Source: an uncultured Bacteriovorax sp. (GTDB lineage: Bacteria; Bdellovibrionota; Bacteriovoracia; Bacteriovoracales; Bacteriovoracaceae). From it: a DNA stretch of 19,227 nucleotides. The DNA lies in assembly GCA_946482295.1 (NCBI GenBank), contig CAMLRB010000045.1:1-19227 (forward strand), read 5' to 3'. The position numbers were made by a program, and so were the translations under genes. Below the pieces are notes generated by a model, which searched no databases, was not told where the DNA came from, and was given only the letters and a program-made list of their open reading frames with translations. Shown one piece after another: positions 922-18,374 of this stretch (positions are counted from its first letter, which is position 1; each line of letters opens with the position of its first letter).

Positions 922-925
922 GGAA

Positions 926-2521: not shown

Positions 2522-2550
2522 AAAATTCCTTAAAGTGATAAATCTGAATT

Positions 2551-2579: not shown

Positions 2580-2580
2580 A

Positions 2581-2601: not shown

Positions 2602-2616
2602 GACTAAATGGCCTAA

Positions 2617-3036: not shown

Positions 3037-3080
3037 CTTGGTGTCCTGTAACCTTTGTCATGCGTTATATTTGATAATTT

Positions 3081-3109
3081 TTGATTTCTTTAAGGGTTTT
3101 GAATACACT
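3081..3109 (+). promoter_or_regulatory. Probable sigma70-type promoter of the nucleoside-salvage operon
   Basis: TTGATT (3081-3086) and TACACT (3104-3109) are separated by 17 nt. The transcript would start near 3116, some 25 nt before the chosen deoA start at 3141. This position also argues against a translation start as far upstream as 3081, which would sit inside the -35 box. Confidence 0.45.
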
Positions 3110-3140
3110 ACTTCTCTTAACAAAACTTGAAGAGCCGCTC

Positions 3141-4493
3141 ATGATTCAATCACTCTCTGCATATACTATTATACAAAAGAAACGAGATAAAGAAAAACTT
3201 ACCAAAGAGGAAATCGCTTGGTTCATCAATGGACTAAACAGCGGGGAAATCGCCGACTACCAAATGTCTGCCCTCTTGATGGCCATATTCCTAAATGGCC
3301 TTGATCGCGAAGAGACCGCTCATTTAACAGATGCCATGCTCTACTCTGGCCGTGTGTTAAATTTTCCAGAACAACATTTTATCGACAAACACTCAACTGG
3401 TGGAGTTGGTGATAAAGCTTCATTTATTCTTGCTCCTATCGCCGCTGCTTGCGGAGTAAAAGTACCTATGATCGCAGGACGTGGTCTAGGCCATACAGGT
3501 GGTACTGTTGATAAGATTGAATCGATTGAAGGTTTTAAAACTTCACTTTCACTTGATGAATTTGAACGTCTCTTAAAAGAGCGCGGACTTGTTATGATCG
3601 GACAAACTGGAGAGATTGCTCCTGCCGACAAAAAAATCTATGCTCTTCGCGATGTCACGGCAACTGTTGAATCCATTCCTCTCATCACTGCATCGATTAT
3701 GAGTAAAAAACTCGCCGAAGGTGCTAAAGGAATCGTGATGGACATCAAAACCGGAAACGGTGCTTTCATGTCCAAATTGAGTGATGCTAAAAAACTAGCT
3801 GAGAGTATTCGTCAAACAGGTCTTCGTTTTAATAAAAACATGATGACGATGATTACTGATATGAATGAACCGCTCGGACTAGCGGTAGGAAATTCACTGG
3901 AGATCATTGAAAGTATCGAAACTTTAAAAGGCAAAGGTCCAAAAGATTTGACGGAGCTTTCAGTGGCACTTGCCGGTGGAATGATCTATCTAGCAGGACT
4001 GGCAAAAACACACAAAGACGGTATCAAAAAAGCACAAGCATCAATCGATGATGGAAGTGCATTAGAAAAATTCCGTCAAATGATTATTGATCAAGGCGGA
4101 AATGCAAAAGTCATCGACAACTACGACTTACTTCCAAAGACTGAAGTTCTTTTAGAAGTGAAGTCTGCGAAAACTGGCTTCATTACAAAGATGAACTGCA
4201 CTCAACTGGGTCTACATTGCGTTCGCTTGGGCGGAGGTCGCATGAAGACTTCAGATAAAATTGATTTTGCTGTTGGCTTTATTTTGAATAAAAAAATTGG
4301 TGAACCTGTTAAAAAAGGCGAAACACTGATGACTATTCATTGCCATTCCAATCAGACAGAAATCGCGGAAGGAATTGCAAAGGCCGTTATTGGTGGAGAC
4401 ATCACAGTCGCCGCAACTAAACCTCGTACGAAAAAGAAACTTATTATTGAAGTGCAGACGAAATTTGCACCTAAGCCAAAAAAGAAGAAATAG
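3141..4493 (+). CDS. deoA: Thymidine / pyrimidine-nucleoside phosphorylase
   Basis: This cytosolic salvage enzyme splits thymidine, and perhaps uridine and deoxyuridine, with phosphate into base and (deoxy)ribose-1-phosphate. From the ATG at 3141 (GAAGAG about 8 nt upstream) the protein has 450 residues, normal for the family. An in-frame start 20 codons earlier would lie in the promoter. The phosphate-binding signature DKHSTGGVGD is at residues 82-91, followed by GRGLGHTGGTVDK, and the SIPLITASIMSKK segment carries base-contact residues. The C-terminal PYNP domain is seen in TGFITKMNC and GGGRMKTSDKIDFAVGF. DYQMSAL, TDMNEPLGLAVGNSLE and GEPVKKGE resemble the low-specificity Bacillus-type Pdp more than E. 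coli DeoA, so broader pyrimidine specificity is likely. The tail is lysine-rich. First gene of the operon with punA and cdd. Confidence 0.93.
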   Translation: MIQSLSAYTIIQKKRDKEKLTKEEIAWFINGLNSGEIADYQMSALLMAIFLNGLDREETAHLTDAMLYSGRVLNFPEQHFIDKHSTGGVGDKASFILAPIAAACGVKVPMIAGRGLGHTGGTVDKIESIEGFKTSLSLDEFERLLKERGLVMIGQTGEIAPADKKIYALRDVTATVESIPLITASIMSKKLAEGAKGIVMDIKTGNGAFMSKLSDAKKLAESIRQTGLRFNKNMMTMITDMNEPLGLAVGNSLEIIESIETLKGKGPKDLTELSVALAGGMIYLAGLAKTHKDGIKKAQASIDDGSALEKFRQMIIDQGGNAKVIDNYDLLPKTEVLLEVKSAKTGFITKMNCTQLGLHCVRLGGGRMKTSDKIDFAVGFILNKKIGEPVKKGETLMTIHCHSNQTEIAEGIAKAVIGGDITVAATKPRTKKKLIIEVQTKFAPKPKKKK

Positions 4494-4495
4494 TT

Positions 4496-5332
4496 ATGAA
4501 TCAATCACTCGCGGAAAAATTAAAATCATCAGCTGAATTTATTGAAAAACATAAATACACAAAACCTGTTGTCGGAATAATTTTAGGTTCAGGCCTTGGT
4601 GCATTCGTCGATCAAATCGAAGACAAAGTGATCATTCAATATAACGACATTCCAAATTTCAGGAAAACTACTGTTGAAGGTCACGCAGGCCAGATGATTT
4701 TAGGAAAAATCAGTGGAACTCCAATCGTCGCTCTTCAAGGACGTTTTCACACTTATGAAGGCCTTGATCTAGATGATGTTGTTTTCCCTGTAAGACTTCT
4801 TGGACGCCTGGGAGTTAAAAAACTTATTCTTACGAATGCCGCTGGTGGTGTGAATTTGAACTACCAACCAGGTGATCTTGTGATTATCGAAGATCACATC
4901 AACCTCACTGGTAAAAATCCACTCATTGGACCAAATGATAATTCAGTAGGCCCTCGTTTTCCGGATATGGGGGACGCCTACAACAAAAAGATGATCAAGA
5001 TTTTAGAAGATGTTTCTGAGAAATGCGGAAACAAATTAAAACGTGGAGTATACGTTGGCGTTTTAGGACCGACATATGAAACTCCTGCTGAGATTAGAAT
5101 GTTCAGAACACTTGGTGGAGACATGGTTGGAATGAGCACTGTTCATGAAACAATTGCTGCTCACCACATGGGTCTTAAAGTTTGCGGTATTTCATGTATC
5201 ACAAATATGGGTGCAGGAATTCTTAAACAGGAACTCAAGCATGAAGACATTAAAGATGAAGCAATGAAGGCCATGAACCACTTCACTGCAATTTTAAAAG
5301 ATGCTGTCGGACAGCTCGCTAATCTTCAATAG
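4496..5332 (+). CDS. punA: Purine nucleoside phosphorylase (trimeric, class I type)
   Basis: The 278-residue enzyme cleaves inosine- and guanosine-type nucleosides by phosphorolysis in the cytosol. Family residues line up with the human trimeric enzyme: GSGLG with S32, EGHAG with H63, GRFHTYEG with R83 and H85 for phosphate, GPTYETPAE around residues 191-199, VGMSTVHE with M213, and ITNMGAG with N237, the purine-binding Asn. Length is typical. The start ATG is 2 nt after the deoA stop, so translation is probably coupled. The hexameric DeoD family is excluded because these motifs are those of the trimeric group. Together with its neighbours it lets the cell use both purine and pyrimidine nucleosides. 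Confidence 0.94.
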   Translation: MNQSLAEKLKSSAEFIEKHKYTKPVVGIILGSGLGAFVDQIEDKVIIQYNDIPNFRKTTVEGHAGQMILGKISGTPIVALQGRFHTYEGLDLDDVVFPVRLLGRLGVKKLILTNAAGGVNLNYQPGDLVIIEDHINLTGKNPLIGPNDNSVGPRFPDMGDAYNKKMIKILEDVSEKCGNKLKRGVYVGVLGPTYETPAEIRMFRTLGGDMVGMSTVHETIAAHHMGLKVCGISCITNMGAGILKQELKHEDIKDEAMKAMNHFTAILKDAVGQLANLQ

Positions 5333-5341
5333 GAGTTAACA

Positions 5342-5740
5342 ATGGATGAAATCACAAAAAAATTAAGACAAAAGGCCATTGAAGTTTCGGCTAACGCCTA
5401 TTCTCCTTATTCAAAAGCTCAAGTGGGAAGTGCTATACTTATGAGTGATGGCTCTATCTACACTGGGTGCAATGTAGAAAACGCAAGTTACGGTGGAACG
5501 ATTTGTGCTGAAAGAACGGCCATTGTTAAAGCAATATCTGAAAACAAAAGAGGAATTGAGAAAGTTTATGTCTACACATCAGAAGGCTGGCCTCCATGCG
5601 GACTCTGTCGTCAGATCATGAGTGAATTTGCGACTAAAGATATGGAAGTGATTATGGGGAACGCTGACGGTGGAGAAACGGTCATGAAGTTCAAAGACCT
5701 CATGCCGCTCTCATTTACGCCAGATCACTTAACAAAATAA
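5342..5740 (+). CDS. cdd: Cytidine deaminase
   Basis: This 132-residue enzyme has the size of the small tetrameric cytidine deaminases, which hydrolyse (deoxy)cytidine to (deoxy)uridine. The zinc site is complete: C55 with catalytic E57 in TICAERTA, and C86 and C89 in PPCGLCRQ. The substrate-binding N44 and E46 are in CNVENASYGG. A strong GGAG sits before the ATG and overlaps the punA stop region. As last gene of deoA-punA-cdd it supplies uridine or deoxyuridine to the phosphorylase. Its TAA stop directly abuts the stop of the convergent phosphatase gene, with no intergenic base and no visible terminator. Confidence 0.95.
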   Translation: MDEITKKLRQKAIEVSANAYSPYSKAQVGSAILMSDGSIYTGCNVENASYGGTICAERTAIVKAISENKRGIEKVYVYTSEGWPPCGLCRQIMSEFATKDMEVIMGNADGGETVMKFKDLMPLSFTPDHLTK

Positions 5741-6514
5741 TTAAGCCTTACAACTGTTGATGATTTTTTCTTGCGTCTTTTCTATGTCGTCGATCGTTTT
5801 TTGATCTGAAACTTGTTGCTTAATTTCTTCGAGTTCATTTCTTCCCTCTTTTGGGCAATAACGATGTTTGATCGCAAGCCCTGCCCCATGCTCTTGTTTT
5901 ATGAAACTAGCGGCAACTTTTGAAATTGCCCCCGCGGACAATTTTCCTTTCAAGTGCTCGAGCCCTGCAATTTCCACAGCAGAAAAGAAATTTCTATCTA
6001 AACCATTAGAAGGAAGCGCTCTGTTTTGAATGGCTCGAATATAAATTCCTGAAACCTTTCTTGGATAGAGTTTAGAAATAGTATCGTAAACCTCAGGGTC
6101 CTTCTCTGTATCATCACCAATGAGAATAATCTCATCTGGTTTAGTATGTTCAATTAGGTCTTTGATAGCTTCAACTTTATATTCGTACGTTTCGATGTTT
6201 TTCGTTTTTAGTGTGAGATTCTTTCCTTGTGGGAAATCATTGTGATCCATGAAGTTGCAAATGATCGACTTAATGATCTTTGGTGAACCACTTACGTAAT
6301 GAATAATTGTTTCTTTATTATCGAGTTCTCTATAGAGGGCTGACATTCCTGAAAAGGCCTTCTTTGAAAAAAGCGCATTACGAACAATCTCTGTTTTTTT
6401 ATTAAGGACATCCGTCATCTTAACAGTGTCATCGACATCACTAACGATAAGAGTTTTTGCATGTAAGGGCGCAAGGGTAAGAAGTAATAGACCTGCTAGA
6501 ATGGGACCTTTCAT
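5741..6514 (-). CDS. Exported App1-like (DUF2183) HAD-type phosphatase
   Basis: The protein carries the catalytic domain of App1-type phosphatidate phosphatases, haloacid dehalogenase-like enzymes with a DxDxT motif. From the ATG at 6514 it has 257 residues. The first 19 form a signal peptide (LAGLLLLTLAPLHA), so it should act in the periplasm or outside the cell. DVDDT (26-30) holds the nucleophile and general acid aspartates. HYVSGSP (72-78) is the second HAD motif. ILIGDDTEKDPEVY (about 130-143) gives the metal-binding acidic cluster, after a conserved-looking lysine helix. The start at 6514 is preferred over an in-frame ATG 13 codons upstream because AGGAG lies 7 nt before it and the signal peptide then starts cleanly. 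Substrate is not proven; a lipid phosphate is likely from the family. There is little room for a promoter of its own (see the hairpin at 6531-6601). Confidence 0.85.
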   Translation of the reverse strand: MKGPILAGLLLLTLAPLHAKTLIVSDVDDTVKMTDVLNKKTEIVRNALFSKKAFSGMSALYRELDNKETIIHYVSGSPKIIKSIICNFMDHNDFPQGKNLTLKTKNIETYEYKVEAIKDLIEHTKPDEIILIGDDTEKDPEVYDTISKLYPRKVSGIYIRAIQNRALPSNGLDRNFFSAVEIAGLEHLKGKLSAGAISKVAASFIKQEHGAGLAIKHRYCPKEGRNELEEIKQQVSDQKTIDDIEKTQEKIINSCKA

Positions 6515-6530
6515 AAAGACTCCTAAAAAA

Positions 6531-6601
6531 TAAAAAAACGGTAACAGTCTCATGCTAACAAACCCCTAGAAAAAGGGTTAGTGGCCTGAAACTATTACCG
6601 T
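6531..6601 (-). terminator. Intrinsic terminator or attenuator between the L,D-transpeptidase and App1-like genes
   Basis: Read on the minus strand, ACGGTAATAGTTTC (6588-6601) can pair over 14 positions with GAGACTGTTACCGT (6538-6551), counting two G-U wobbles. A second hairpin nests inside: CTAACCC with GGG and GTTAG, 6555-6581. The outer stem is followed at once by a run of seven T and then more T (6525-6537). This is a textbook intrinsic terminator, starting 13 nt after the transpeptidase stop. Unusually, its T-tract runs straight into the AGGAG ribosome site of the next gene. Confidence 0.75.
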
Positions 6602-6614
6602 CTCTGTATACTTT

Positions 6615-7850
6615 TTAGACGGATGGAATATCGCTTACTCCGTCAATTCCCATGAATTTACGGTAGATTCTGTCTTTAGCAGAGTCTTTTCTCTTTCCTT
6701 CATCCTGGCAGGCCTGGATGCTTTTTTCATCTGCTGGAATGATCCCCGCCATGACTTTGGCCTGACACTCGTTTTTACGTCTTTCGTTTTGTTCTCTCAG
6801 CTGGGCCTGTGTATCGTAATTATAAAGCTCTTCATTGTTATCGTCTGCACGATCAACAAGTTTTTCAATTGGAGCTCCCGATTCTTTGTAAGTCATCTGT
6901 ACAAGATTGTCGCGATCGAGTGGGAAAAATGGACTCTCAGCTGTTCCATTATTTAGGACTGTCTTATAAGTTTTGTTTCTTTTGGCCCATGGGTGATCTG
7001 CTTTATCTTCTGTTTTATAAGAAACAGTAATTGGCAATTGTTGTTCATCTCCATCCATGATCAGGTCATGAAGGGCCTGAAGATCGAAAGCTCGTAAACG
7101 CATACATCCGTGTGAATCAAACCCACGTACGAATGAATCGTTGATTTCGATGTGAAATCCGATTGCTGTTGTATCAGCTTTTAAATCACGTCCATTAAGA
7201 ATACGAATGAATGGCTTTCCATCGAAATAACGAGGTTTTTCACGTTTTGAGATCACTGCTCTTTGATCAATAAATCCGTGTTTAAAACGTGGAGTTAATA
7301 GACTGACTTGTCCTTCGTTAAGAACACCTTCATCAAATCCACCAACACCGATAGGGAAAACAATTTTTAAATCAAAATTCTTATCTTCCAGAATGAGTTT
7401 ACGATCAATAAGTCCAACAGTGAGCGTGAGGTTTAACGATTTAACGTCAAAAGAACCTTGTTGCTCAATGCTCATCTCTTCTAGCTTCTTCGCGTTTTTA
7501 TTGTAACGAACGAGAATTTTCTCAATACGTGAGCCTTCTTTTGTTTTAATCAAGGCGGTTAACTTCAATTCTATCGTTGTTGTTTCCAGGTTTGGCTCTT
7601 CATTAAGGAAAACAGTGTGAAGAGTTTCAATTGACGATGTAGGGAAGAACGCTTGAGGATTCTTCTTCATGTTGGCCGCAACGTTTGCGAGTCCTGGAAC
7701 TAGTGAAGGCATTACATTTACCAAGTCATCAATTCTTACGCCAATAACTTTATTTTGTGCTTCAACTGGTAGCTGCTCTGCGAATGCATTTTGAACGCCG
7801 AAAGCAAGCATCGCTGCTAAAGTCGATGAGACAACCGTGTGTCTAATCAT
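6615..7850 (-). CDS. Exported L,D-transpeptidase (YkuD catalytic domain)
   Basis: This is a peptidoglycan-modifying enzyme expected in the periplasm, where YkuD enzymes form 3-3 crosslinks, attach proteins or exchange D-amino acids through an active-site cysteine. The ATG at 7850 has a very strong AGGGGG before it and begins a signal peptide (VVSSTLAAMLAFGV, cleavage near FAE), giving 411 residues. An in-frame start 14 codons upstream is less likely. The YkuD motif is seen as GFHIEI with H233, then SHGCMRL with C249 as nucleophile and R251. About 190 residues of unrecognised N-terminal region precede it. A charged C-terminal extension of about 130 residues (rich in E, K, Q and with two cysteines) follows. 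Bdellovibrio uses L,D-transpeptidases on prey wall, but a housekeeping role is equally possible here. Confidence 0.9.
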   Translation of the reverse strand: MIRHTVVSSTLAAMLAFGVQNAFAEQLPVEAQNKVIGVRIDDLVNVMPSLVPGLANVAANMKKNPQAFFPTSSIETLHTVFLNEEPNLETTTIELKLTALIKTKEGSRIEKILVRYNKNAKKLEEMSIEQQGSFDVKSLNLTLTVGLIDRKLILEDKNFDLKIVFPIGVGGFDEGVLNEGQVSLLTPRFKHGFIDQRAVISKREKPRYFDGKPFIRILNGRDLKADTTAIGFHIEINDSFVRGFDSHGCMRLRAFDLQALHDLIMDGDEQQLPITVSYKTEDKADHPWAKRNKTYKTVLNNGTAESPFFPLDRDNLVQMTYKESGAPIEKLVDRADDNNEELYNYDTQAQLREQNERRKNECQAKVMAGIIPADEKSIQACQDEGKRKDSAKDRIYRKFMGIDGVSDIPSV

Positions 7851-7882
7851 TTGAGTCCCCCTGTAATTTTTTAATGAAGCAG

Positions 7883-7903
7883 GTAGTACCAAAAAGGCAC
7901 CAC
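7883..7903 (-). promoter_or_regulatory. Hairpin in the divergent region ahead of the L,D-transpeptidase gene
   Basis: On the minus strand GTGGTGCC, TTTTT and GGTACTAC form an 8-bp stem (two G-U pairs) with a five-T loop, about 33 nt before the transpeptidase ATG. It could be a leader structure or a protein-binding site. No clear promoter was found for either divergent gene. Confidence 0.3.
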
Positions 7904-7987
7904 TTTAAGAATTTAAATAGCTCTGCGTGTATTTTTTACAGTCATTTCGCGCTATCATTGATTGTTCAAATAACAAGGAATGGATTG

Positions 7988-8566
7988 ATGGAAATGTGGG
8001 CCAATTTGAATTTTAAGGAGATGTTTTCGGTAACTCTTATTCTTTTTGCCGTCATCGATATTCTCGGCTCAATTCCGTTCATTTTGAATTTACGTAAACG
8101 CTACCAGAACATTGATGCATTTAAGATTACGTTAGTCTCAGGGATTCTGCTTTTCCTCTTCTTATACGTCGGACAATCCATTCTGAAGCTCTTTGGAGTT
8201 GATGTTCAGTCTTTCGCCATTGCCGGTGGTTTAATCATGTTCTTTTTAGGACTAGAAATGGTTCTCAACATTGAGATCTTCAAACATGATCCGCAAATTG
8301 AAGACTCATCGCCTATCGTTCCCCTCGCCTTCCCTCTTATTGCCGGTGCCGGATCGATGACTACACTCATTTCGCTTAACTCTCAGTTCGCCAAAATTAA
8401 TATTATTCTTGGGCTGATTCTCAATTTGATTTTTGTCTACGCGGTTTTAAAAGCATCCGATTTTATCGATAGGGCCATTGGAGTTACAGGAAGTATTATC
8501 TTAAGAAAATTCTTCGGAACCATTCTTTTGGCCATGTCGATTAAACTTATCAGAAGCGGAATCTAA
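7988..8566 (+). CDS. MarC-family integral inner-membrane protein
   Basis: The product is a MarC/UPF0056 membrane protein. Members have about six transmembrane helices and no agreed transport substrate, and the early link to multiple antibiotic resistance is not upheld. From the ATG at 7988 (AAGGA about 10 nt upstream) it has 192 residues. Six hydrophobic segments lie near 12-34, 45-67, 73-95, 108-128, 136-155 and 170-188. The family hallmark VPLAFPLIAGAGSMTT begins near residue 111. Longer readings start as far back as 7874, but they would add a polar, unconserved stretch and remove the divergent promoter region. The gene is divergent from the transpeptidase and appears to be a single-gene unit. 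Confidence 0.87.
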   Translation: MEMWANLNFKEMFSVTLILFAVIDILGSIPFILNLRKRYQNIDAFKITLVSGILLFLFLYVGQSILKLFGVDVQSFAIAGGLIMFFLGLEMVLNIEIFKHDPQIEDSSPIVPLAFPLIAGAGSMTTLISLNSQFAKINIILGLILNLIFVYAVLKASDFIDRAIGVTGSIILRKFFGTILLAMSIKLIRSGI

Positions 8567-8593
8567 AATTAGCCGAGTTATCTACTAGGACAT

Positions 8594-8610
8594 CTAAAAT
8601 CCTGTTTTAG
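8594..8610 (+). terminator. Weak AT-rich hairpin downstream of the marC-like gene
   Basis: CTAAAA (8594-8599) and TTTTAG (8605-8610) pair around a five-base loop, 28 nt after the stop, followed by TTGTTAG rather than a clean T-run. It may be a weak terminator. Confidence 0.3.
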
Positions 8611-8640
8611 TTGTTAGAAAATACTTAAGTAATTTATTAT
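8611..8640 (+). promoter_or_regulatory. Candidate promoter of the FeeM-like gene, with a 10-bp palindrome in the spacer
   Basis: TTGTTA (8611-8616) and TATTAT (8635-8640) are 18 nt apart. TACTTAAGTA (8622-8631), a perfect 10-bp palindrome, lies in the spacer and would be well placed for a repressor. AT-rich DNA gives such matches by chance, so confidence is low. Confidence 0.3.
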
Positions 8641-8681
8641 CATCCTCCGAAAAGTGAGAAAACTTGCTTCTTAGGTGATAA

Positions 8682-9539
8682 ATGAGATTAATCAACAAAC
8701 TTAAACAAAAAAAAATTAAAAGATTCTTTTGGGAGTTAATGCTTAGAACTCCATCTTTTTTACGCAAAAGGATTATTCGTTCTCGCTTTGAAATCAACTA
8801 CAATATGGATGAGAATATTGTTTTTAAACAAGCTCAATCAAAAAAAGAGATCGATACTGCTTTAAGTTTAGTCTATGAGGCCTACTTAGGTCTGAAATAT
8901 ATCGATAGCAATGTTCAAAATCTTCATTTTACAAAATATCTTGGTCTTCCAACTACTGTTATTCTTGTTATAAAAATTGGAGAGGAAGTAGTTGGTACAA
9001 TGAGCATTGTTCAGGATTCGGCCCTTGGTCTCCCTTGTGATACAACTTGGAATCTGGATGAAGTTAGAAAAAAAGGAAAGATTGCTGAAATATCTGCACT
9101 CTGTATTAAGAAAGACCTAAAAACTAATAAAGGGCATTTACTACTTCCACTCTGCAAATTGATGCACAAATTCTGCACAGAAATTCTCGATATAAACGTC
9201 ATTGTACTTGCGGCCACTCACGAAGTAGAACCTTTCTATACTGATCTTCTACTCTTTGAAAAAATTGATAATATAACAGGACAAAAACATTCCCTGGTTA
9301 AAGGGAACGAATCAACATGCTGTTATCTTGTCTTAGGTAAAAGTAATGAAGACAATTACTACAAAGTCTATAATGGGAAAGCGAAAAGCAAAAATTTACA
9401 CCACTTCTTTTTGATTCACGAAAGTTCAAATATAGAAATGCCAAATGAAGAAGAAATTTTTACATTAAGAACAAATGAAAAAAATAAGAACATCCTCGAA
9501 TTATTTAGGGAGAAACCTCTCAAGCTGAAGAATGGTTAA
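8682..9539 (+). CDS. FeeM-type N-acyl amino acid synthase domain protein (GNAT/autoinducer-synthase-like fold)
   Basis: Residues about 45-200 of this 285-residue protein fit the FeeM N-acyl amino acid synthase group, GNAT-fold enzymes related in structure to LuxI that transfer a fatty acyl chain from acyl carrier protein to an amino acid. The visible match is the order VGTMSIVQDSALGLPCD (104-120), WNLDEVRKKGKIAEISALCI (123-142), LLLPLCKLMHKF, INVIVLAATHEVEPFYTDLL and a GF-like LLFEKI. The first 40 residues are very basic (many K and R) and could bind membrane or nucleic acid. The last 80 are of unknown type. AGGTGA precedes the ATG. No acyl carrier protein gene is nearby. Its stop overlaps that of the convergent receiver gene in TTAA. 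The exact product, and whether it is a signal, is not known. Confidence 0.65.
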   Translation: MRLINKLKQKKIKRFFWELMLRTPSFLRKRIIRSRFEINYNMDENIVFKQAQSKKEIDTALSLVYEAYLGLKYIDSNVQNLHFTKYLGLPTTVILVIKIGEEVVGTMSIVQDSALGLPCDTTWNLDEVRKKGKIAEISALCIKKDLKTNKGHLLLPLCKLMHKFCTEILDINVIVLAATHEVEPFYTDLLLFEKIDNITGQKHSLVKGNESTCCYLVLGKSNEDNYYKVYNGKAKSKNLHHFFLIHESSNIEMPNEEEIFTLRTNEKNKNILELFREKPLKLKNG

Positions 9540-9943
9540 GTTCGATTTACAAATTTCCAACAATTATTTAATTTAGAAATTAATTCTTTTGAAGTCCATG
9601 GCTTTACAATATAGTCGCTTGCACCTTCTTGAATAGCTTCAAGGAAATGTGCAACCTCATCGTTTGTCGTACACATGACAAAGGGAGTTTTTAGAAAATT
9701 CTTTTCTTTACGAAACTCTTTTAGAAAATTTAGGCCTGAACCGTCTGGTAAATTCCAATCACAAATGACAAAACCAATTTCAACATTACGAAATTTTGAA
9801 AGTGCATCCTGAATAGATTCTGCTTCAGTAATTTCACCTTTACATCCAACTGATCTTAGATCATTGACCATTTGATTTCTAATAGACTGTAGGTCATCTA
9901 AAATAAAAAAGGGAACATACTCTAATGAAGATAATAATTTCAT
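9536..9943 (-). CDS. Stand-alone CheY-like receiver (response regulator 1)
   Basis: This 135-residue protein is a single receiver domain with no output domain. The phosphorylation set is complete: acidic pair D16-D17 in FFILDDLQS, phospho-acceptor D62 in VICDWNLPDGSG, T92 in VMCTTND and K114 in DYIVKPW. It would be phosphorylated by a histidine kinase and pass the signal on by protein contact or within a phosphorelay. The CDWNLPDGSG acceptor loop makes it less alike to the other two receivers here than they are to each other. It has its own divergent upstream region shared with the flavoprotein gene. A modest AGG lies before the ATG. Its stop overlaps the end of the FeeM-like gene by 4 nt. 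Confidence 0.9.
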   Translation of the reverse strand: MKLLSSLEYVPFFILDDLQSIRNQMVNDLRSVGCKGEITEAESIQDALSKFRNVEIGFVICDWNLPDGSGLNFLKEFRKEKNFLKTPFVMCTTNDEVAHFLEAIQEGASDYIVKPWTSKELISKLNNCWKFVNRT

Positions 9944-10018
9944 ATTTTACCTGAAAGGGGGTGTATCAATGGTAAATATTGTAATTCAAAATATGAGTTC
10001 TGCTTGATTTTTTTTTAA

Positions 10019-10033
10019 CGAGTACAGTACTCG
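10019..10033. promoter_or_regulatory. Perfect 15-bp palindrome, probable operator
   Basis: CGAGTACAGTACTCG is a perfect inverted repeat with 7-bp arms around a central A. It sits in the 157-bp divergent gap and is flanked on each side by very T-rich DNA on the plus strand. Its centre is about 44-50 nt upstream of the TATAAT ahead of the flavoprotein gene, a place where an activator or repressor dimer could bind. The binding protein is unknown. Confidence 0.5.
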
Positions 10034-10069
10034 GATTTATTTTTTTAATTCTTTAAATGTTATTAGTTG

Positions 10070-10075
10070 TATAAT
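10070..10075 (+). promoter_or_regulatory. -10 box (TATAAT) for the flavoprotein-receiver operon
   Basis: A perfect TATAAT at 10070-10075 lies 25 nt before the ATG at 10101. No good -35 box stands at 16-18 nt upstream, which suggests activator dependence, possibly through the palindrome at 10019. The AAAGGA ribosome site follows at 10088-10093. Confidence 0.5.
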
Positions 10076-10100
10076 CCTTAATATTTAGAAAGGATTTCAA

Positions 10101-11588
10101 ATGCAGATTACAACTACTTTAGGGATCAATCGTCAGGACATTACAATTTATGAGCCTGAAAGCATTGATGAATTAAAAAAAGATTTTGTGAATTATAGCT
10201 CCCGTTTTACGAATATCTCTGTTACGTCAGGGGGTAAAAACTGGGGTTATGGCTGTCACGCACCTAATGCTGATCAAAGCTTGCTAATTCATTTAAAGAA
10301 ATGCAATCGTATTATTGAGTTTGATAACTATCACGGAATCATTACGCTTGAGCCAGGCGTAACCTATGGGCAGTTGGCACTCTACCTGGAAGAAAAGGGC
10401 GATGAATGGATAGCTCCTGTCCATGGTGGTGGACCGGATTGCTCAGTCATTGGAAATGCTATGGAGCGCGGATACGGAATTACCCAACACACTGATCATT
10501 TCGGAGCTGTTATCACTTTAGAGGCTATTTTGAATGACGGCTCAATCTATGTTGGATCATTAAAAAAACTCGGGTTGGAAAGATTAGATAAGCTTTTCAA
10601 ATACGGTGTGGGGCCATACCTAGATCCAATTTTTACACAATCCGGAGTTGGTATTGTGACCCAAGCGACAATTAGGCTTGCCAAAAAGCCTTCATATGTT
10701 GAGATGTTTTATTATTTTCTGGAAGATGAAGCTTCTCTTCAACCATCTGTTGAGGCCATTAAAAAATCTAAACTAACACTAGGAAGCCTAGTCGGAGGAA
10801 TCAATCTCATTAACCGGGAAAGATGTTTAAGCATGCTCATTGATTATCCTCTTGAGAAAATACTTTCCAGGGCCCCATTGTCAGAAGAGGAAATGATCAA
10901 AGAAGCAAAAAAAAATATGATAACACCATGGCTTGTTGTAGGAATGCTTTATGGTGAAAAAAGGCTCGTAAAGGAATCACGAAAAATAATTGAAAATAAC
11001 TTCGCTGGAATTAAAAAGAGAAAATTTTATTTCAATACAAATAATCGAAAACTTTATCAACTTGCCCAAGAAGTACTTCGAAGAATAAACATCACCTCTT
11101 TTGACAGATCACTGACAAGCATGAACATGGCCTATGATGTCCTGTACGGCAAACCTAATAATGTTGCTTTAAAGCTCGCTTATTGGAAAAATGAAAATAA
11201 AGAACTAGTGAAAAATGATAATTTAAACCCAAATCGGGATAAATGCGGTCTCATTTGGTATGCTCCTTTAGTAGAGTTAACTGCATCAAGCGTGCAAACA
11301 TACTGCGAATTTATAAAAGAAGCTTCTAAGAAATTTAATATCAATTCGTTAATTACACTTACAACAATTGATGATCTTTGTTTTGATTCTACAGTCCCCA
11401 TACTTTTCAATTCCAATGATTCAAAAGATCGTGAGAATGCCTGGAAATATTATGAATATCTTATAGAAGAAGGAAAAAAATTGGGCTTTTTCCCTTATAG
11501 ATTGAATATTGAGAGCCAAAAAAAATATAATCTTAACAATTCTATACTTCGTTTTAATTTGATAAACGAAGCAAGGTACAACAATTAA
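10101..11588 (+). CDS. FAD-dependent oxidase/dehydrogenase of the vanillyl-alcohol oxidase / 4-cresol dehydrogenase type
   Basis: This 495-residue flavoprotein has the PCMH/VAO-type FAD-binding fold. Visible motifs in family order are SGGKNWGYG (43-51), LEPGVTYGQLALYLE (83-97), VIGNAMERGYGITQHTDHFG (116-135), YGVGPYLDPIFTQSGVGIVT (168-187) and, in the cap domain, DKCGLIWYAPL (about 380-390). The YGVGPYLDPIFTQS segment is close to the vanillyl-alcohol oxidase/4-cresol dehydrogenase subfamily. Those enzymes oxidise para-substituted phenols, and this is the basis for the call. The substrate here is not known. The C-terminus ends soon after YRLNIESQKKYNLNN and lacks the usual closing DPxGILxPG-like segment, and no frameshifted continuation is evident. 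There is no signal peptide. AAAGGA precedes the ATG. A receiver gene follows 14 nt downstream and is likely co-transcribed. Confidence 0.8.
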   Translation: MQITTTLGINRQDITIYEPESIDELKKDFVNYSSRFTNISVTSGGKNWGYGCHAPNADQSLLIHLKKCNRIIEFDNYHGIITLEPGVTYGQLALYLEEKGDEWIAPVHGGGPDCSVIGNAMERGYGITQHTDHFGAVITLEAILNDGSIYVGSLKKLGLERLDKLFKYGVGPYLDPIFTQSGVGIVTQATIRLAKKPSYVEMFYYFLEDEASLQPSVEAIKKSKLTLGSLVGGINLINRERCLSMLIDYPLEKILSRAPLSEEEMIKEAKKNMITPWLVVGMLYGEKRLVKESRKIIENNFAGIKKRKFYFNTNNRKLYQLAQEVLRRINITSFDRSLTSMNMAYDVLYGKPNNVALKLAYWKNENKELVKNDNLNPNRDKCGLIWYAPLVELTASSVQTYCEFIKEASKKFNINSLITLTTIDDLCFDSTVPILFNSNDSKDRENAWKYYEYLIEEGKKLGFFPYRLNIESQKKYNLNNSILRFNLINEARYNN

Positions 11589-11602
11589 AAAAAGAGCACA
11601 GA

Positions 11603-12010
11603 ATGAGTAAATCGGATCGATTAAGAGTTATGGTTGTTGATGATGTTTCTGCATATCGTGGGGAACTGATTGGAATTTTGAAAAGCATCGGTATTAATTA
11701 TATAGATGAAGCGGAAAATGGTCTCAAAGCATGGGATAAAATTGTGCTAGAGTCCAAAGGCAATGAAAAATTTGATTTAGTTATCAGTGATATTAACATG
11801 CCAATTCTAAATGGTCTTGAGCTATTGAAAAACATTCGTGAATTCAATCGGACTTCAAAGTTATCTGTTGTTTTAGTGTCTACAGAAAATGAAAAAGAGT
11901 TAATTATGCAGGCCATCTCTATGGGCATAAGTGATTATCTGATAAAACCCTATCAGGAAGAAACAGTAAAAAACCGAATAATTGCTTGTTTAAATAAAAT
12001 AATCAGCTGA
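11603..12010 (+). CDS. Stand-alone CheY-like receiver (response regulator 2)
   Basis: A 135-residue single receiver domain. Key residues are D13-D14 (VMVVDD), phospho-acceptor D63 in ISDINMPILNG, S93 in VLVSTENEK and K115 in DYLIKPY. It lies 14 nt after the flavoprotein gene with only a weak ribosome site (AAAGAG), so it is probably expressed from the same transcript. It converges tail to tail with the CheA-like kinase gene, making it the best candidate for that kinase's partner. It resembles the receiver at 17955-18347 (VSTE-EK, INMP and DY-LKP/IKP segments), which suggests a duplication within the locus. Both it and the kinase end in Ile-Ser-stop encoded by one shared palindrome. Confidence 0.92.
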   Translation: MSKSDRLRVMVVDDVSAYRGELIGILKSIGINYIDEAENGLKAWDKIVLESKGNEKFDLVISDINMPILNGLELLKNIREFNRTSKLSVVLVSTENEKELIMQAISMGISDYLIKPYQEETVKNRIIACLNKIIS

Positions 12011-14534
12011 TAGGAAGTATAAATCTGAATTCTGAACCGCTTCCCACTTTTGAATTCAGAATAATTTGGCCTCCAACTTTTTCTAAGGCTTCTTTAATTG
12101 CCGACATACCTACCCCTCTTCCAGAAAAAGCTGAAACTTCTTCACGGGTTGAAAAGTTTGGATCAAAAATTCGATAAATTATCTCCTGATCATTTTCAGA
12201 AACTTCTATCTTGGATTGTTCAAATTTTTTGCGAATTAAATTTGGGTCTATACCTTGGCCATCGTCTTTTACAATTATTTGCAGCTCATTTTTTGTTTTC
12301 TCAAATTGAACTGTAATTTTTCCTGCAGGATCTTTTCCTTGTGCTCGTCTTTTCTCAGGACTTTCAATTCCATGATCAACACAGTTCCTGAAAAGGTGAA
12401 CCATTGAATTAAAAAAATCAGAATACTTTTCAGCAGGGATCAGTACATCTGCACCTTTTAACTCCAAGGGACTTACTAATTTTCCTGTTCTATCGGCTAT
12501 AGTCTGCATTAATTTATCATATATTTTGAAGTAATTAATTGCAGGCTCCAGAAGGAAATCCTCGTAAAAAGTATCTTTCAATGTTGTATCACCCACACTG
12601 TCAATTAGAGTTTTCAATCTCAAAACTTTTTCCTTTTCGATTTCGATACTGCGTTTATTTTTATTAAAAGCTAACCCTGCATTGTTTTTTAAGTCTTCAA
12701 GATAATTTTCGAAGCTCTTTTTCAAATCAAGGACTAGTTTCTTCAAGACGACTTCTTCAACATTATCGTTCGTCTTCATAAATTCGCTTATCTTCATTTC
12801 AGATTCGACTGCCTGCTTTTGCAGATGGGTAATTGAGAAAAGCCCAAATCCTCCGTTAAGAGTATGGAAATTAATCATAAACCCTTTCAGGAGTTCTTCT
12901 TTTGTAATTCCTTCTTGATGCAAATTATCTAGTTTCTCGAGAATTGCATAAACCTCATCTACAAAAGAAGCAAAATGGCCCTTGTTACTCAATATTTTCA
13001 GAATCATTAAAACAAAGGCTTCTTTTTCTTTGAATTGTTCGTTGTAGATAATTTCTTTAGTTTTGTCTGTCGCAACCACTACAATATTTTTTAAATGATC
13101 ATCATCAGACATTGGAAAATAATTCAAAGTGATACTTCTAAAATTTTCATTAGAGTAATGATCTCCCCAAGTTTTTTCATGAGGCATTAAGCCAATGGCA
13201 CTTTCGAAGGGAATACGATTTCCAAAGGTGATTTTACTCCAATCTTCAAAAAATTTCTTCTTTCCACTTTCCTCTAAAATTTCATAAAAATACTTATTAT
13301 GAGGAGAATTTCCAAAAACTTTTTCGCAGGCCTTTGTATAAATATCATGGCACTTAAGATCCTGATCAAAGACAACTAGTCCCTGGTCAAGACTGTTGAC
13401 CATAGCACTCATGAAGTCATTCGCATTTTTTAACTCGGCTGTTCGCTGAGCAACCATTTTTTCTAGGTTATGACTATAATCTTCGAGCTGTGCCTTTGCT
13501 TTATTGAGTTCATCAATCATTGTCTGCTTTTCTTTTAATAGCGAACTAACTTCTTCTGCCATAAAGTTAAACGAATCTGATAAAATTTTAAGCTCATCAT
13601 TCGTTTTAACATTAGAACGAACATCAAAATTACGTTGGGCCAAAGCTTGAGATGTCTCGGACAAACTCAATATTGGTTTTGTAATACTTGATGAAAAAAG
13701 AGTACCGAAAACAATAGCTCCGCCGAGTAACGCAAAAGCGAAAAAAATAGTTTTATAAATTAGATTTTTAGTCACTTCAAATGCCTTTGCAGAAGGCATG
13801 CTCGAAGAAATCAATATTCCTTCATTTGGAAAATAAACATAAGCTATAAGCTGTTTTTCTTTATTATGTACTATCTCCCTAGCGCCTTTAAATAATGAAC
13901 TCTTTACGATTTCAGAAGCAATATTTTGACCGATTCCTGTACCAAGTGCCAGTTGCATGTTTTTTTCATTGCTGACAAACAACGAATTTGAGAACAATTG
14001 ATCTGTGGCCAGCAATTCCAGAACTGGCCGTGCTGTAAAAATTAGTACCCTTATGGTCGAACCATTGTCATTTGCAAGAGAGAAAAAAGGCTCACCATTT
14101 AAATTCATAAATTGAACTTTTCTCGAAAGTTTTTGCTCACGGATGCTTCGAAAAACAAACTCTTCTATATCGCTTTCATTAAGTTTGATTTTATAGGTCG
14201 AGTTATCACTGAAAGCTGACTTATCAATTAGAGAAAAATCATCACTGGAGAAAGTGAATGAAAAGGCCAATGATTTGCTTTGACTTGAGATTATCTTCAG
14301 GTTCTTGGCATTCTGATTTTTAAATTCTTCAAACAACTTCATAGTTTGAAGCATTTGATTGTATTCAAGCTTAATCTGATCACCTAAGTTTTCAGATCGT
14401 TTAAGTGCTGATTCAAATATGTATGCTCTTTTATCTGCGACAAAAAGATTGTAAGAATAGTACAAATTAAAACTAACTGTCGCCGCCAACAGAATAAAAA
14501 TTCCAAGTAGGATTTTCGACTTTAAACTAAACAT
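12003..14534 (-). CDS. Membrane CheA-like histidine kinase with HAMP, PAS-like and HPt-like domains
   Basis: Residue numbers here start from a TTG two codons upstream of the chosen ATG at 14534. The ATG is preferred because GATGAG lies at better spacing; it gives 843 residues. TM1 is at about 8-30, a periplasmic sensor region runs to about 258, and TM2 is at about 260-285. HAMP follows at about 285-335, then a coiled coil to about 372, a PAS-like domain (about 375-495) and an HPt-like helix bundle around INFHTLNGGFG with H559. A CheA-type ATPase completes it: HLFRNCVDHGIESPEKRRAQ (N-box N719), DDGQGIDP (759-766) and SGRGVGMSAI (806-815), ending in FRFILPIS. CheW-like and CheY-docking domains are absent. 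H559 is followed by TLNG, where HPt domains usually have a lysine (HxxKG). It would sense a periplasmic or envelope signal and phosphorylate one or more of the nearby receivers. Divergent from the FecR operon. Confidence 0.88.
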   Translation of the reverse strand: MFSLKSKILLGIFILLAATVSFNLYYSYNLFVADKRAYIFESALKRSENLGDQIKLEYNQMLQTMKLFEEFKNQNAKNLKIISSQSKSLAFSFTFSSDDFSLIDKSAFSDNSTYKIKLNESDIEEFVFRSIREQKLSRKVQFMNLNGEPFFSLANDNGSTIRVLIFTARPVLELLATDQLFSNSLFVSNEKNMQLALGTGIGQNIASEIVKSSLFKGAREIVHNKEKQLIAYVYFPNEGILISSSMPSAKAFEVTKNLIYKTIFFAFALLGGAIVFGTLFSSSITKPILSLSETSQALAQRNFDVRSNVKTNDELKILSDSFNFMAEEVSSLLKEKQTMIDELNKAKAQLEDYSHNLEKMVAQRTAELKNANDFMSAMVNSLDQGLVVFDQDLKCHDIYTKACEKVFGNSPHNKYFYEILEESGKKKFFEDWSKITFGNRIPFESAIGLMPHEKTWGDHYSNENFRSITLNYFPMSDDDHLKNIVVVATDKTKEIIYNEQFKEKEAFVLMILKILSNKGHFASFVDEVYAILEKLDNLHQEGITKEELLKGFMINFHTLNGGFGLFSITHLQKQAVESEMKISEFMKTNDNVEEVVLKKLVLDLKKSFENYLEDLKNNAGLAFNKNKRSIEIEKEKVLRLKTLIDSVGDTTLKDTFYEDFLLEPAINYFKIYDKLMQTIADRTGKLVSPLELKGADVLIPAEKYSDFFNSMVHLFRNCVDHGIESPEKRRAQGKDPAGKITVQFEKTKNELQIIVKDDGQGIDPNLIRKKFEQSKIEVSENDQEIIYRIFDPNFSTREEVSAFSGRGVGMSAIKEALEKVGGQIILNSKVGSGSEFRFILPIS

Positions 14535-14595
14535 GCTCAATACTCATCTGTTTATTAAAACAAATAATATGATATATTAGTTAGTAGAAACCGCT
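14535..14595. promoter_or_regulatory. Short divergent promoter region between kinase and FecR operon
   Basis: Only 61 nt separate the two divergent starts and most are A or T. TATATT at 14573-14578 could be a -10 box for the FecR gene, with a weak TTTATT at 14551-14556 upstream. TATCAT-like sequence on the other strand could serve the kinase. Their boxes must overlap, so the two units may be co-regulated. Confidence 0.35.
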
Positions 14596-16566
14596 ATGGA
14601 AAAAATTAATTATAATCAAAGTATTTCCAATAATAATGTCATTATTTGGGCAATGCTTTTTAGTGCAGTAAATATCTACTTCTTAATTAATACTCGCCCA
14701 CCGCTCAACATTCGTAATCTAAATCCGATTGCAGAAATAGGCCAAGTTGAATCGGAAGTAATGCATAAGATATATGGTTCGTTGACTTGGGGGCAGCCTA
14801 AAAATGGAGAGCCTCTATTTATTGGGGATGAAATATTTACCGGAGATCATTCTGAAGTGGTTATTAACTTCAAAAAAAATGGAATGAAACTTAGGTTAGC
14901 TCCAAATTCGCTAATTCGTATTGAGCAAACACTGGACCCAATAATTGAAGTAAAACTCGGCGATGCTATTGTAGAAAATCAACAAAAAGCGAAAGTTCAG
15001 ATCAAAACGGCCAGCAAGATTATTGAATTGACGTCCGATCCTGATTCTAAGATAAAAATTTCTTCAATTGGAGAAAATCTGGGAATTCAATCTTTACAAG
15101 GAAAAACTATTTCTGCAGGAAAGGAAATCCCCGTTGAATTGCTATCAATAGAGTCTCTTGAAAAATCTCTTCCCTCACTACCACAAATAACTTTTCCAGT
15201 CTCAGGACAAATTATTTTTCAAAATACCCCCGGCAGTAAGATTATTGTTGCAGAATCACTGCAGTGGAAAAATAGTAAGAAGATCTACAAACTGCAACTA
15301 TCCACTGATGAAAATTTCACCAACCTCATTCCAACTACGATTAAAGGTCTTCCTCTCAATTTGGGGGAACTACCTATGGGCATTTATTATCTGAGGCTTT
15401 CAACCGGTGAACAGTCCAGTTTTCCAATTAAATTTTCTGTCAAAAATGACGCTCGTTTCGAATCACTTCATCCTGAAAATGATTCCAGCATTATCATTCC
15501 TAGAGCAGGAAATATTAAACTCTCTTGGGTAACCAGCAAACCTTTATCATCTGATTTAATCATCGAAAACTTGAATAACAACAGAGTTGTTGAAATAAAA
15601 TCGCAAAAGTACGAAAGTATTTTCTCCCCTCCTGAAGCTGGAAAGTATCGTTGGAAATTAACTGGAAAAATAAAAGAACAAAGAATTACAGAAACTGAAG
15701 ATCAGTTTTTTGATGTCTCTTATGAGCCAATTGGAAGTTTACTGGGGCCACAAAAAAATGTTTTCAAAAGTGAAGAACTCAAAACTCTGAATTTTCAATG
15801 GGCGAAATTTAAAAACGAAGCTTTCAATGTCGAATTACTCGATTCAAAAAATAATAGGATCATTGATCAAGTCACACAATTAGATAGCTTTACATGGGAG
15901 TATCCAGAACCGGGCAAATATAAATTAAGATTGGCTTCACAAACATATCAATCAAAAACAACTTTTGAGTTTCCATTTTCTATACAGGCACCACTCCTGC
16001 AATGGCTTCCCTTTAAAAAACGCCTGGAAAGTACAGATCCTGAAATCAGCTTCAAGTTGCCTGTAAAGGTTTACCTAAACAACAAAGTAGGTGTAGAACT
16101 TTATCGTCCTGGAACGAGTTCAGGAAAAGAAATAAAAAGAGATTCCATCGTAAAATTAAATGATCCAGGTGAATATTGTTTAAGAGCTTCGGGCCCTATA
16201 GATTCACTTTCTTACTTTCCAGAGCCACTTTGCTTTGAGTTCATCAACCTGCTTCCTTTCACTGATTTGCCAAAACTGAATGACCAAATCTTAAAAAGTG
16301 GAAAAGAGGATGAATCACTATTTTATTTTTTGAAATCGCCAGATGTGAAAAATGCTACTCTGTATGAATTTTCTGTCTATAAAGACGCAGAAAAAAGAAA
16401 TTTAGTATTCAACTCCAAAGAGTCAAGACCTGAAACTAAGTGGAAAACAAATCGTTCAGGTGTATATTATCTTACTTATAAAGTTTATGACAAATATGGA
16501 AGGTCAAGCTTGGAATCTGAAGCAGCAAAAATCTTTTTCCCTGTCTCACCTTTGAGTGAATGGTGA
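14596..16566 (+). CDS. Membrane-anchored FecR-domain protein with five beta-sandwich repeats
   Basis: The 656-residue product starts with a short cytosolic tail, one membrane helix (about 15-32) and then a periplasmic part. A FecR-type domain spans about 55-150 (GSLTWGQPKNGEPLFIGDEI, RLAPNSLIRIE). The rest is built of Ig/FN3-like beta-sandwich units. Each closes with a G-x-Y-x-L strand: GIYYLRL (262-268), GKYRWKL (349-355), GKYKLRL (440-446), GEYCLRA (525-531) and GVYYLTY (622-628). Spacing is therefore 85-97 residues. This is not a classic FecR anti-sigma regulator, since no sigma factor gene is nearby. Bacteria of the Bdellovibrio type often pair such FecR domains with LysM peptidoglycan binders, as here. 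The gene is followed by a barrel protein gene with a TGATG overlap. A role as an envelope scaffold or ligand sensor is inference. Confidence 0.75.
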   Translation: MEKINYNQSISNNNVIIWAMLFSAVNIYFLINTRPPLNIRNLNPIAEIGQVESEVMHKIYGSLTWGQPKNGEPLFIGDEIFTGDHSEVVINFKKNGMKLRLAPNSLIRIEQTLDPIIEVKLGDAIVENQQKAKVQIKTASKIIELTSDPDSKIKISSIGENLGIQSLQGKTISAGKEIPVELLSIESLEKSLPSLPQITFPVSGQIIFQNTPGSKIIVAESLQWKNSKKIYKLQLSTDENFTNLIPTTIKGLPLNLGELPMGIYYLRLSTGEQSSFPIKFSVKNDARFESLHPENDSSIIIPRAGNIKLSWVTSKPLSSDLIIENLNNNRVVEIKSQKYESIFSPPEAGKYRWKLTGKIKEQRITETEDQFFDVSYEPIGSLLGPQKNVFKSEELKTLNFQWAKFKNEAFNVELLDSKNNRIIDQVTQLDSFTWEYPEPGKYKLRLASQTYQSKTTFEFPFSIQAPLLQWLPFKKRLESTDPEISFKLPVKVYLNNKVGVELYRPGTSSGKEIKRDSIVKLNDPGEYCLRASGPIDSLSYFPEPLCFEFINLLPFTDLPKLNDQILKSGKEDESLFYFLKSPDVKNATLYEFSVYKDAEKRNLVFNSKESRPETKWKTNRSGVYYLTYKVYDKYGRSSLESEAAKIFFPVSPLSEW

Positions 16567-17573
16567 TGAATAAGATATTTTTTATCTTTTTAGGAATTTT
16601 CTTTCTGTTTTTTATCAATGCTCAGGCAGAAGATTACTACAAATTAACTTATATAATCCCTGAAGAGACTGACTTTGCAGAGGCCATCAGAACATTCGTT
16701 AAAGATGATGCAATTATAAATGCCAAATCTCCAATGGTCATCAAAACCATTAAGAAAAACCCCCACATCAAAGATTGGAAAAATCTGATCGCTGGTCAGG
16801 AATTAGATTTATACATAGATGCCCGTTTTATTGATTTTCAAAAATATTTGAATTACGAAAAAAGAATAATTGCCGAAATTAACAAGAACAAATTAGGAGT
16901 TAGTTATAAAACTTCGGCCTATAATCACGGATTAAAAAGTTCAGTATATTATATGATTTCAAGTGGAACCTTTACACAAAAAAATCCACAGTTTGCAAAG
17001 GCCGAATTCAATCAAACCACTCCGCTTACATTTGGTCTTTCTTTAGCTTATTATCCAAAAAGAAGTCTCTATTCAACTTCTCTTAATTTCAGCTACTCAG
17101 CTTTTAATTCAGCCTCCACAAATCTGAATAATGAAAGTGTTAAAAATGATCCAGATGTGGGTATTGCACTGTACGAAGAATATAGAACGGCACGATTGGG
17201 CACTATATTTGCCGGTTTTGATTATGAGTCATTCTCAACTTTCGATCTCGAGACAATAAATAACCTGCAACAGATAAATTTTAACAAAAATAAAGTGACA
17301 TATTTGACAGTAGGTGTGGCAAAATCTTTTAAAATTTTTGATAAATTAATGTTAAGTAAGGCATCATTCTCTCAAAGTTTATTTTCCAGTCAAAGTTCAA
17401 CATTGGCCAACACAACTGATGAATATAAAGGAAGCAAAATTCTGCTTTACCTTGATTACAAGTTCACTGAAAATTTCTTCTTTCATACTCAATTTAAATA
17501 TCATTGGATGAAAGGCATTGATCAAATTACAGTCAGTAGAATTGGAGTAGGATTTGGATATGTACTTTTCTAA
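16566..17573 (+). CDS. LysM-like domain plus outer-membrane beta-barrel protein
   Basis: I do not know a named family. From the ATG at 16566 (in TGATG, overlapping the FecR stop, with GAG 9 nt upstream) the protein has 335 residues. An ATG two codons earlier is possible but spaced worse. A signal peptide covers 1-21 (FFLFFINAQA). Residues about 23-84 look like a diverged LysM domain ending in NPHIKDWKNLIAGQELDLYI, so it may bind peptidoglycan. From about 110 on, alternating hydrophobic strands rich in Y, F and S (SSVYYMISSG, LTFGLSLAYY, STSLNFSYSAF, SKILLYLDYKF, FFHTQFKYHW) suggest an outer-membrane barrel of roughly 8-12 strands. It closes with IGVGFGYVLF and a terminal Phe as in Bam substrates. 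It overlaps the next gene by 14 nt. Confidence 0.72.
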   Translation: MNKIFFIFLGIFFLFFINAQAEDYYKLTYIIPEETDFAEAIRTFVKDDAIINAKSPMVIKTIKKNPHIKDWKNLIAGQELDLYIDARFIDFQKYLNYEKRIIAEINKNKLGVSYKTSAYNHGLKSSVYYMISSGTFTQKNPQFAKAEFNQTTPLTFGLSLAYYPKRSLYSTSLNFSYSAFNSASTNLNNESVKNDPDVGIALYEEYRTARLGTIFAGFDYESFSTFDLETINNLQQINFNKNKVTYLTVGVAKSFKIFDKLMLSKASFSQSLFSSQSSTLANTTDEYKGSKILLYLDYKFTENFFFHTQFKYHWMKGIDQITVSRIGVGFGYVLF

Positions 17574-18347: not shown

Positions 18348-18374
18348 TTTTCTTTATCCTTTTACAATCTATTT

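Follow-up and report, generated by a model that had tools for sequence, protein, structure and literature searches.

Do two genes that lie close together in the DNA of an uncultured Bacteriovorax sp., one for a FeeM-type acyltransferase and one for a phenol-type flavoprotein, encode successive steps of one pathway, and do the two-component genes around them belong to it? The stretch that raises this question, hereafter the window, comprises 19,227 nucleotides (nt) of contig CAMLRB010000045.1 (positions 1 to 19,227, forward strand; assembly GCA_946482295.1). An original prediction, made from the letters of the window, held that the flavoprotein could oxidize an N-acyl-tyrosine made by the acyltransferase and that this possible pathway may be wired to the two-component genes. 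We find the pathway idea well founded and put at about 0.55 the probability that the two genes supply both enzymes of a short lipo-amino-acid pathway of the FeeM plus flavin adenine dinucleotide (FAD)-dependent oxidase kind. The gene positions and motifs on which the prediction was built were recovered among the open reading frames (ORFs), and its spacing of about 560 nt proved to be 561 nt from the stop of the synthase gene to the start of the flavoprotein gene (Table 1).

A FeeM-family synthase and a phenol-type flavoprotein

FeeM-type enzymes make N-acyl amino acids. The synthase of the window scored 88.4 bits against the Pfam FeeM family PF21926 (cut-off 27), and a profile search with it retrieved FeeM at E 2e-4; phmmer with the protein alone against the PDB found FeeM only at E 0.034. 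Because the Pfam model, the profile search and the fold, which is that of FeeM and the acyl-homoserine-lactone (AHL)-synthase-like GNAT proteins, all point the same way, we assign the protein to the FeeM family, as had been predicted from its two ordered motifs, DSALGLPCD and AEISALCI. Glu136, which lies in the latter, was invariant among 47 relatives. The window protein lacks the C-terminal PilZ domain found in many of its relatives (P0122–P0170; L106, L109 and L110), which are mostly 410–450 residues long; that domain was present in 30 of the 50 FeeM relatives listed, and such FeeM-PilZ fusions suggest that N-acyl amino acid synthesis may there be under cyclic di-GMP control. The FeeM domains of several partners of the flavoprotein also match the first part of the NCBIfam model PRK14852 (989 residues), far below its cut-off.

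The flavoprotein matched Pfam FAD_binding_4 (PF01565; 57 bits, cut-off 26.4) and, by sequence in the PDB, chains of vanillyl-alcohol oxidase (VAO), p-cresol methylhydroxylase (PCMH), eugenol oxidase and vanillyl-alcohol dehydrogenase (best E 3e-36). These matches confirm the VAO/4-cresol-dehydrogenase type that had been read from its motifs, and the protein carries a PCMH-type FAD domain and the matching overall fold. No specific Pfam or NCBIfam model for its subfamily matched in our scans. Tyr50, Tyr466 and Arg467 are equivalent to Tyr108, Tyr503 and Arg504 of VAO and to residues of PCMH that we take to be Tyr95, Tyr473 and Arg474; they were conserved in 98, 98 and 99 rows, respectively, of a 99-row alignment (19 relatives including the window protein, plus 80 genome loci), which bears out the predicted phenol-type active site. 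In VAO, these three residues make up the phenolate pocket (PMC12909556; this and the other papers given by PMC number are cited for those passages of them that were available).

At the site of the VAO-type flavin-linking histidine, the subfamily has Asp429 (94 of 99 rows) and Ser430 (92 of 99), and FAD is therefore probably not bound covalently through such a histidine; the site of the PCMH-type flavin-linking tyrosine falls outside the aligned stretches of the flavoprotein-PCMH alignment. Non-covalent FAD has been described for a Novosphingobium enzyme of the VAO/PCMH family (PMC7617285). The pair of residues at flavin N5 is Gly109-Gly110 in the register given by four MAFFT modes, which is gap-free for PCMH and the Novosphingobium enzyme and displaced an alternative pair, His108/Gly109; for vanillyl-alcohol dehydrogenase, a gap shifts. 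Gly109 was found in 98 of the 99 rows. This pair is an acid with Leu in oxidases and a small residue with Pro or Ile in dehydrogenases, and the P151G exchange at the N5 site of vanillyl-alcohol dehydrogenase led to oxidase activity and reaction with O2 (PMC7617285). From this precedent and the glycine at the N5 site in the window, use of O2 by the flavoprotein is plausible, no more.

Linkage of the two genes across genomes

Two signature peptides, the CGLIWYAP pattern among them, were used to scan 84,980 species genomes; this yielded 96 relatives, and 80 loci were kept; one of these, L029, sits on a tree branch of length 10, probably because its row is in the wrong frame, and is still included in the counts. 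FeeM-type ORFs in the flanks were located with a home-made iterated FeeM profile, and in a Pfam check of eight FeeM-type or flavoprotein ORFs, all seven synthases exceeded the cut-off of PF21926. A FeeM-type ORF was present in the available flank of 50 of the 80 loci, within 3 kb in 42 and within 1 kb in 27; for the latter two distances, the chance expectations calculated from FeeM counts and genome sizes were 0.26 and 0.11. Of the 62 loci whose flanks reached 3 kb or more in both directions, 38 were linked. The two genes were on the same strand in 33 of the 42 linked loci, with FeeM upstream in 30 of those 33. Linked loci came from Arsukibacterium, Rheinheimera, Alishewanella, Lacimicrobium, Bowmanella, Pseudomonas, Massilia and Noviherbaspirillum as well as from three Planctomycetota, one Nitrospirota and one Cyanobacteriota, several of them metagenome-assembled genomes. 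They are scattered over the flavoprotein tree, including its Cyanobacteriota, Pseudomonas, Planctomycetota and Alteromonadales branches, and the 42 linked rows required 15 changes compared with a shuffled mean of 32.7, indicating clustering by kinship and yet spread. Genome-wide, a FeeM match accompanied the flavoprotein in 75 of 80 cases (45/50 and 30/30; 79 distinct genomes). A plasmid search gave one relevant match, on the mobilizable plasmid NZ_AP014813.1 of Methylorubrum populi (L105:4068-10711), where an operon-like run comprises a FeeM-type synthase (133.7 bits), a methyltransferase, a flavoprotein of the subfamily, a halogenase and an amidase.

The window flavoprotein groups in the tree with Bdellovibrionota sequences and metagenome proteins, which points to that phylum as the probable origin of the window. 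In the order of L001, one of the five nearest genomes (L001–L005), and probably the order of the window as well, a VAO-type match (E 1e-20) was found in 20 of 118 genomes and FeeM in 50 of 118; FeeM accompanied the flavoprotein in 18 of these 20 genomes and was present in 32 of the 98 without such a match (Fisher p 2e-6, uncorrected for kinship). Up to 9 FeeM matches were seen in single genomes of this order. The genes lie within 3 kb of each other in 5 of the 20 flavoprotein-bearing genomes (L106–L110), being adjacent in L106 and L109, overlapping in L107 and L108 and 1.7 kb apart in L110. In the overlapping cases (L107:6178-8650 and L108:6062-8558), the FeeM gene overlaps that of a VAO-type flavoprotein of another subfamily, in which GFLLCTP replaces CGLIWYAP and the Tyr and Tyr-Arg positions are retained. 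Closer to the window, two metagenome flavoproteins with 60% identity come from contigs of the same size as those of FeeM relatives (P0003/P0140, 10,439; P0004/P0147, 42,222), which suggests, without proving it, that each pair belongs to one contig and hints at linkage in the near clade.

Elsewhere in the subfamily, the commonest neighbor, in 35 of the 80 loci, was a protein cluster whose example bears a PEP-CTERM motif, followed by trypsin-like protease (30 loci), TPR proteins (29), AMP-ligase (12), kinase and sigma-54 regulator (11 each) and carrier protein (9), each cluster identity resting on one scanned example. In Arsukibacterium L066, the FeeM-type partner matches TIGR03694, the PEP-CTERM/exosortase acyltransferase, with 221 bits (cut-off 112), unlike the window synthase, for which this model gave no match. 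An association of synthases like that of L066 with the PEP-CTERM/exosortase system has been reported earlier (Craig 2011, as cited in PMC4897644 and PMC11072679). When genomes were tested for exosortase, 9 of 10 that carry the pair and come from other phyla than Bdellovibrionota had it, as against none of 13 Bdellovibrionota genomes from the probable lineage of the window; the gene pair is thus independent of exosortase.

Proposed pathway and its alternatives

In the proposed pathway, the FeeM-type enzyme would take a fatty acyl group from acyl carrier protein and attach it to an amino acid at the amino group. That amino acid would most likely be tyrosine because the partner enzyme is of the phenol-oxidizing type. 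Tyr50, Tyr466 and Arg467 of the flavoprotein would then hold the phenol of the N-acyl-tyrosine while a benzylic hydride passes to the probably non-covalent FAD, giving a para-quinone methide, and the reduced FAD would probably be reoxidized by O2. With its carboxylate free, the quinone methide would most likely lose CO2 and become an N-acyl-4-hydroxystyrylamine. FeeG from soil bacteria converts N-acyl-L-tyrosines into N-acyl-4-(2-aminovinyl)phenols by oxidative decarboxylation (PMC8762209), an FAD-dependent oxidase of chondrochloren biosynthesis takes acylated tyrosine through a quinone methide to loss of CO2 (PMC3039461) and the phylogeny of 4-phenol oxidases contains an oxidative decarboxylase (OxD) clade (PMC7617285). 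Because of these precedents, oxidative decarboxylation ranks as the most likely outcome by analogy, ahead of a desaturated or hydroxylated product that retains the carboxylate.

That second outcome is the alternative that survives best, and we regard it as doubtful: the quinone methide would retain its carboxylate and be turned into an N-acyl-2,3-dehydrotyrosine of the thalassotalic acid or stieleriacine type or, by addition of water, into a beta-hydroxy-tyrosine. N-acyl-dehydrotyrosines do occur naturally in Thalassotalea, Stieleria and Massilia (PMC12479983), and VAO-type enzymes also convert para-alkyl phenols into alkenes and alcohols (PMC12909556). In print, however, the desaturation that leads to N-acyl-dehydrotyrosines is assigned to a TyzC-like nitroreductase with ThiF, the passages available naming no FAD enzyme (PMC12479983; PMC10404671), and where the carboxylate is free, the described flavoenzymes remove it (PMC3039461). 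In none of the 29 pair-bearing genomes compared did a nitroreductase hit (PF00881, whose coverage of such enzymes was unchecked) lie 10 kb or less from the pair, so the flavoprotein could replace it, and neither ThiF nor nitroreductase appeared among the scanned or listed window proteins of at least 80 residues, ThiF having had no separate search. In the genus Stieleria, the flavoprotein was matched in 11 of 14 genomes, which is not decisive for the stieleriacine route; its absence from the matches in the other 3 counts against a role there.

Alternatively, the two genes could be unrelated neighbors, the flavoprotein oxidizing phenols from the environment or other phenols of the cell while the synthase makes a lipid of its own, a reading that we consider unlikely given the linkage above chance in the subfamily, the co-occurrence in the order of L001 and the overlapping genes in two relatives. 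It draws on the 38 of 80 loci that are unlinked within 3 kb, 24 of which have flanks of 3 kb or more in both directions, and on the arrangement in the window and in the nearest genomes, which also weighs against the two-step pathway. In the window itself, the two genes are transcribed separately, and a receiver gene of opposite orientation lies between them. The recurrent neighborhood looked for holds for the subfamily at large and fails in the five nearest genomes, where no FeeM ORF was found in the examined flank of the flavoprotein gene (a flank that reached 10 kb in both directions only in L001 and L004), these genomes carrying 4 to 8 FeeM matches elsewhere. Other points tell against the two-step pathway. 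Among the five linked genomes of the order, only L109 has the subfamily signature, and most FeeM-adjacent flavoproteins in the order are distant (25–38% identity), Tyr/Tyr/Arg still being kept. The linkage counts come from related genomes, and the Poisson figures overstate their independence. Residue 110 is Ala and not Gly in most members of the subfamily (Ala 62, Gly 34 and Ser 2 of the 99 rows), tyrosine is a putative substrate of the window synthase, and both FeeG and the chondrochloren enzyme are likened to the window flavoprotein by their described reactions and not by sequence.

Extending the two-step pathway beyond the window, we tentatively suggest that the unnamed flavoprotein subfamily (CGLIWYAP and DSTVPILFN motifs, non-covalent FAD) may be the regular oxidizing partner of FeeM in at least five phyla. 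Its oxidized N-acyl-tyrosine might serve as an envelope lipid, as part of the PEP-CTERM/exopolysaccharide system in exosortase bearers and, in the exosortase-free Bdellovibrionota, with its synthesis controlled by cyclic di-GMP by way of the FeeM-PilZ fusions. If true, this would place an oxidized lipo-amino acid in Bdellovibrionota.

As for the two-component genes, the receivers beside both genes and the membrane kinase after them that the prediction listed were all present in the domain scan (Table 1). The receiver gene within the 561-nt gap meets the synthase gene 3' end to 3' end and is divergent from the flavoprotein gene; the other begins 14 nt past the flavoprotein gene, perhaps in one transcript with it, and is convergent with the kinase gene. 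Between positions 8500 and 12100, promoter-like sites were fewer than in shuffles (7 versus 14.4) and terminator-like sites roughly equal (3 versus 1.9), and both counts were uninformative. Among 25 selected loci, the receivers, kinase and FecR of the window recurred nowhere as the same set beside FeeM or the flavoprotein, and L001, L002, L003 and L005 had nothing similar to the window kinase or receivers near the flavoprotein gene; with the family check of L004 and L069, this led us to reject two-component wiring as part of the core of the pathway. The predicted wiring is not supported: in the loci examined, the small receivers and CheA-like kinase recur neither beside FeeM nor beside the flavoprotein. 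It is very improbable that the receivers and membrane kinase form a signaling module that senses or controls the N-acyl product: the receivers flank both genes, and a kinase with a sigma-54 regulator lies within 7 kb in 11 of 80 loci (Alteromonadales-type), receiver-like proteins adjoin the flavoprotein in L107, a phytochrome-type kinase is near it in L004 and kinases and FecR are near it in L069, but none of these sets equals that of the window, and two-component genes are frequent in genomes of this kind. We regard the receivers beside the pair as probably ordinary neighbors, and pathway membership of the receiver at 11603..12010 and of the membrane kinase is not supported. The L069 locus (Halobacteriovoraceae; L069:3164-9715) encodes two flavoproteins together with a FecR, an Hpt/HATPase and a SpoIIE phosphatase protein and bears a faint resemblance to the kinase-FecR neighborhood of the window.

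Table 1. Positions of the genes, motifs and residues discussed, in window coordinates
Feature	Position	Strand	Basis or remark
FeeM-family N-acyl amino acid synthase, 285 aa	8682..9539	+	ORF list, Pfam, profile search, fold
DSALGLPCD motif, residues 112-120	9015..9041	+	aligns with FeeM DGAQGLPMD
AEISALCI motif, residues 135-142	9084..9107	+	aligns with FeeM AEV
Stand-alone receiver, 135 aa	9536..9943	-	Response_reg, 79.4 bits
VAO/PCMH-type flavoprotein, 495 aa, predicted phenol oxidase	10101..11588	+	ORF list, Pfam, PDB matches
Tyr50 codon	10248..10250	+	phenolate binding
Gly109-Gly110 codons	10425..10430	+	flavin-N5 pair
CGLIWYAP signature, residues 382-389	11244..11267	+	pattern used to find loci; conserved in alignment
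Asp429-Ser430 codons	11385..11390	+	site of VAO-type flavin-linking His
Tyr466-Arg467 codons	11496..11501	+	aligned with VAO Tyr503-Arg504
Stand-alone receiver, 135 aa	11603..12010	+	Response_reg, 80.9 bits
Membrane kinase with HAMP, weak Hpt and HATPase (CheA-like)	12003..14540	-	domain scan
Third stand-alone receiver	17955-18347	-	after FecR-like/Ig-like protein, outer-membrane-like protein and LysM protein
ORF with repeated NHL-like units and recurring TCxxGxQxxWCTGGxY-type segments	18375-19151		by eye

Comparison with known systems

Our literature search, which drew mostly on passages of papers and had FeeM-PilZ fusions outside its scope, found no VAO-type flavoprotein described beside FeeM in these bacteria. 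The NasY-ThiF-nitroreductase clusters for thalassotalic acids, kyonggic acids and stieleriacines and the mycobacterial Tyz system resemble the proposed pathway in making N-acyl-tyrosine and then oxidizing its side chain (PMC12479983; PMC10404671) and differ from it in that a nitroreductase-fold enzyme with ThiF carries out the oxidation. The window flavoprotein differs from PCMH, VAO and eugenol oxidase in having no histidine at the VAO flavin-linking site and a Gly-Gly pair at N5 in place of acid/Leu or small/Pro, and a long, fully supported tree branch separates it from three reference enzymes. In the chondrochloren pathway, whose oxidative decarboxylase we take to be CndG, the acyl-tyrosine comes from nonribosomal synthesis and not from FeeM. 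Possible novelties are how far the flavoprotein subfamily extends, the absence of a specific Pfam or NCBIfam model for it, its PEP-CTERM company and the FeeM-PilZ fusions of Bdellovibrionota.

The original prediction knew of no described system with this gene set, but a system of this kind has been described: FeeM, the N-acyl-tyrosine synthase of the fee nomenclature, provides the precedent together with FeeG (PMC8762209). The other fee genes of this soil-DNA pathway are absent from the window as far as it was scanned. The likeness lies in the two enzymes themselves: the window encodes a synthase that belongs to the FeeM family by Pfam and fold, and a flavoprotein of a type that would be able to carry out the FeeG reaction.

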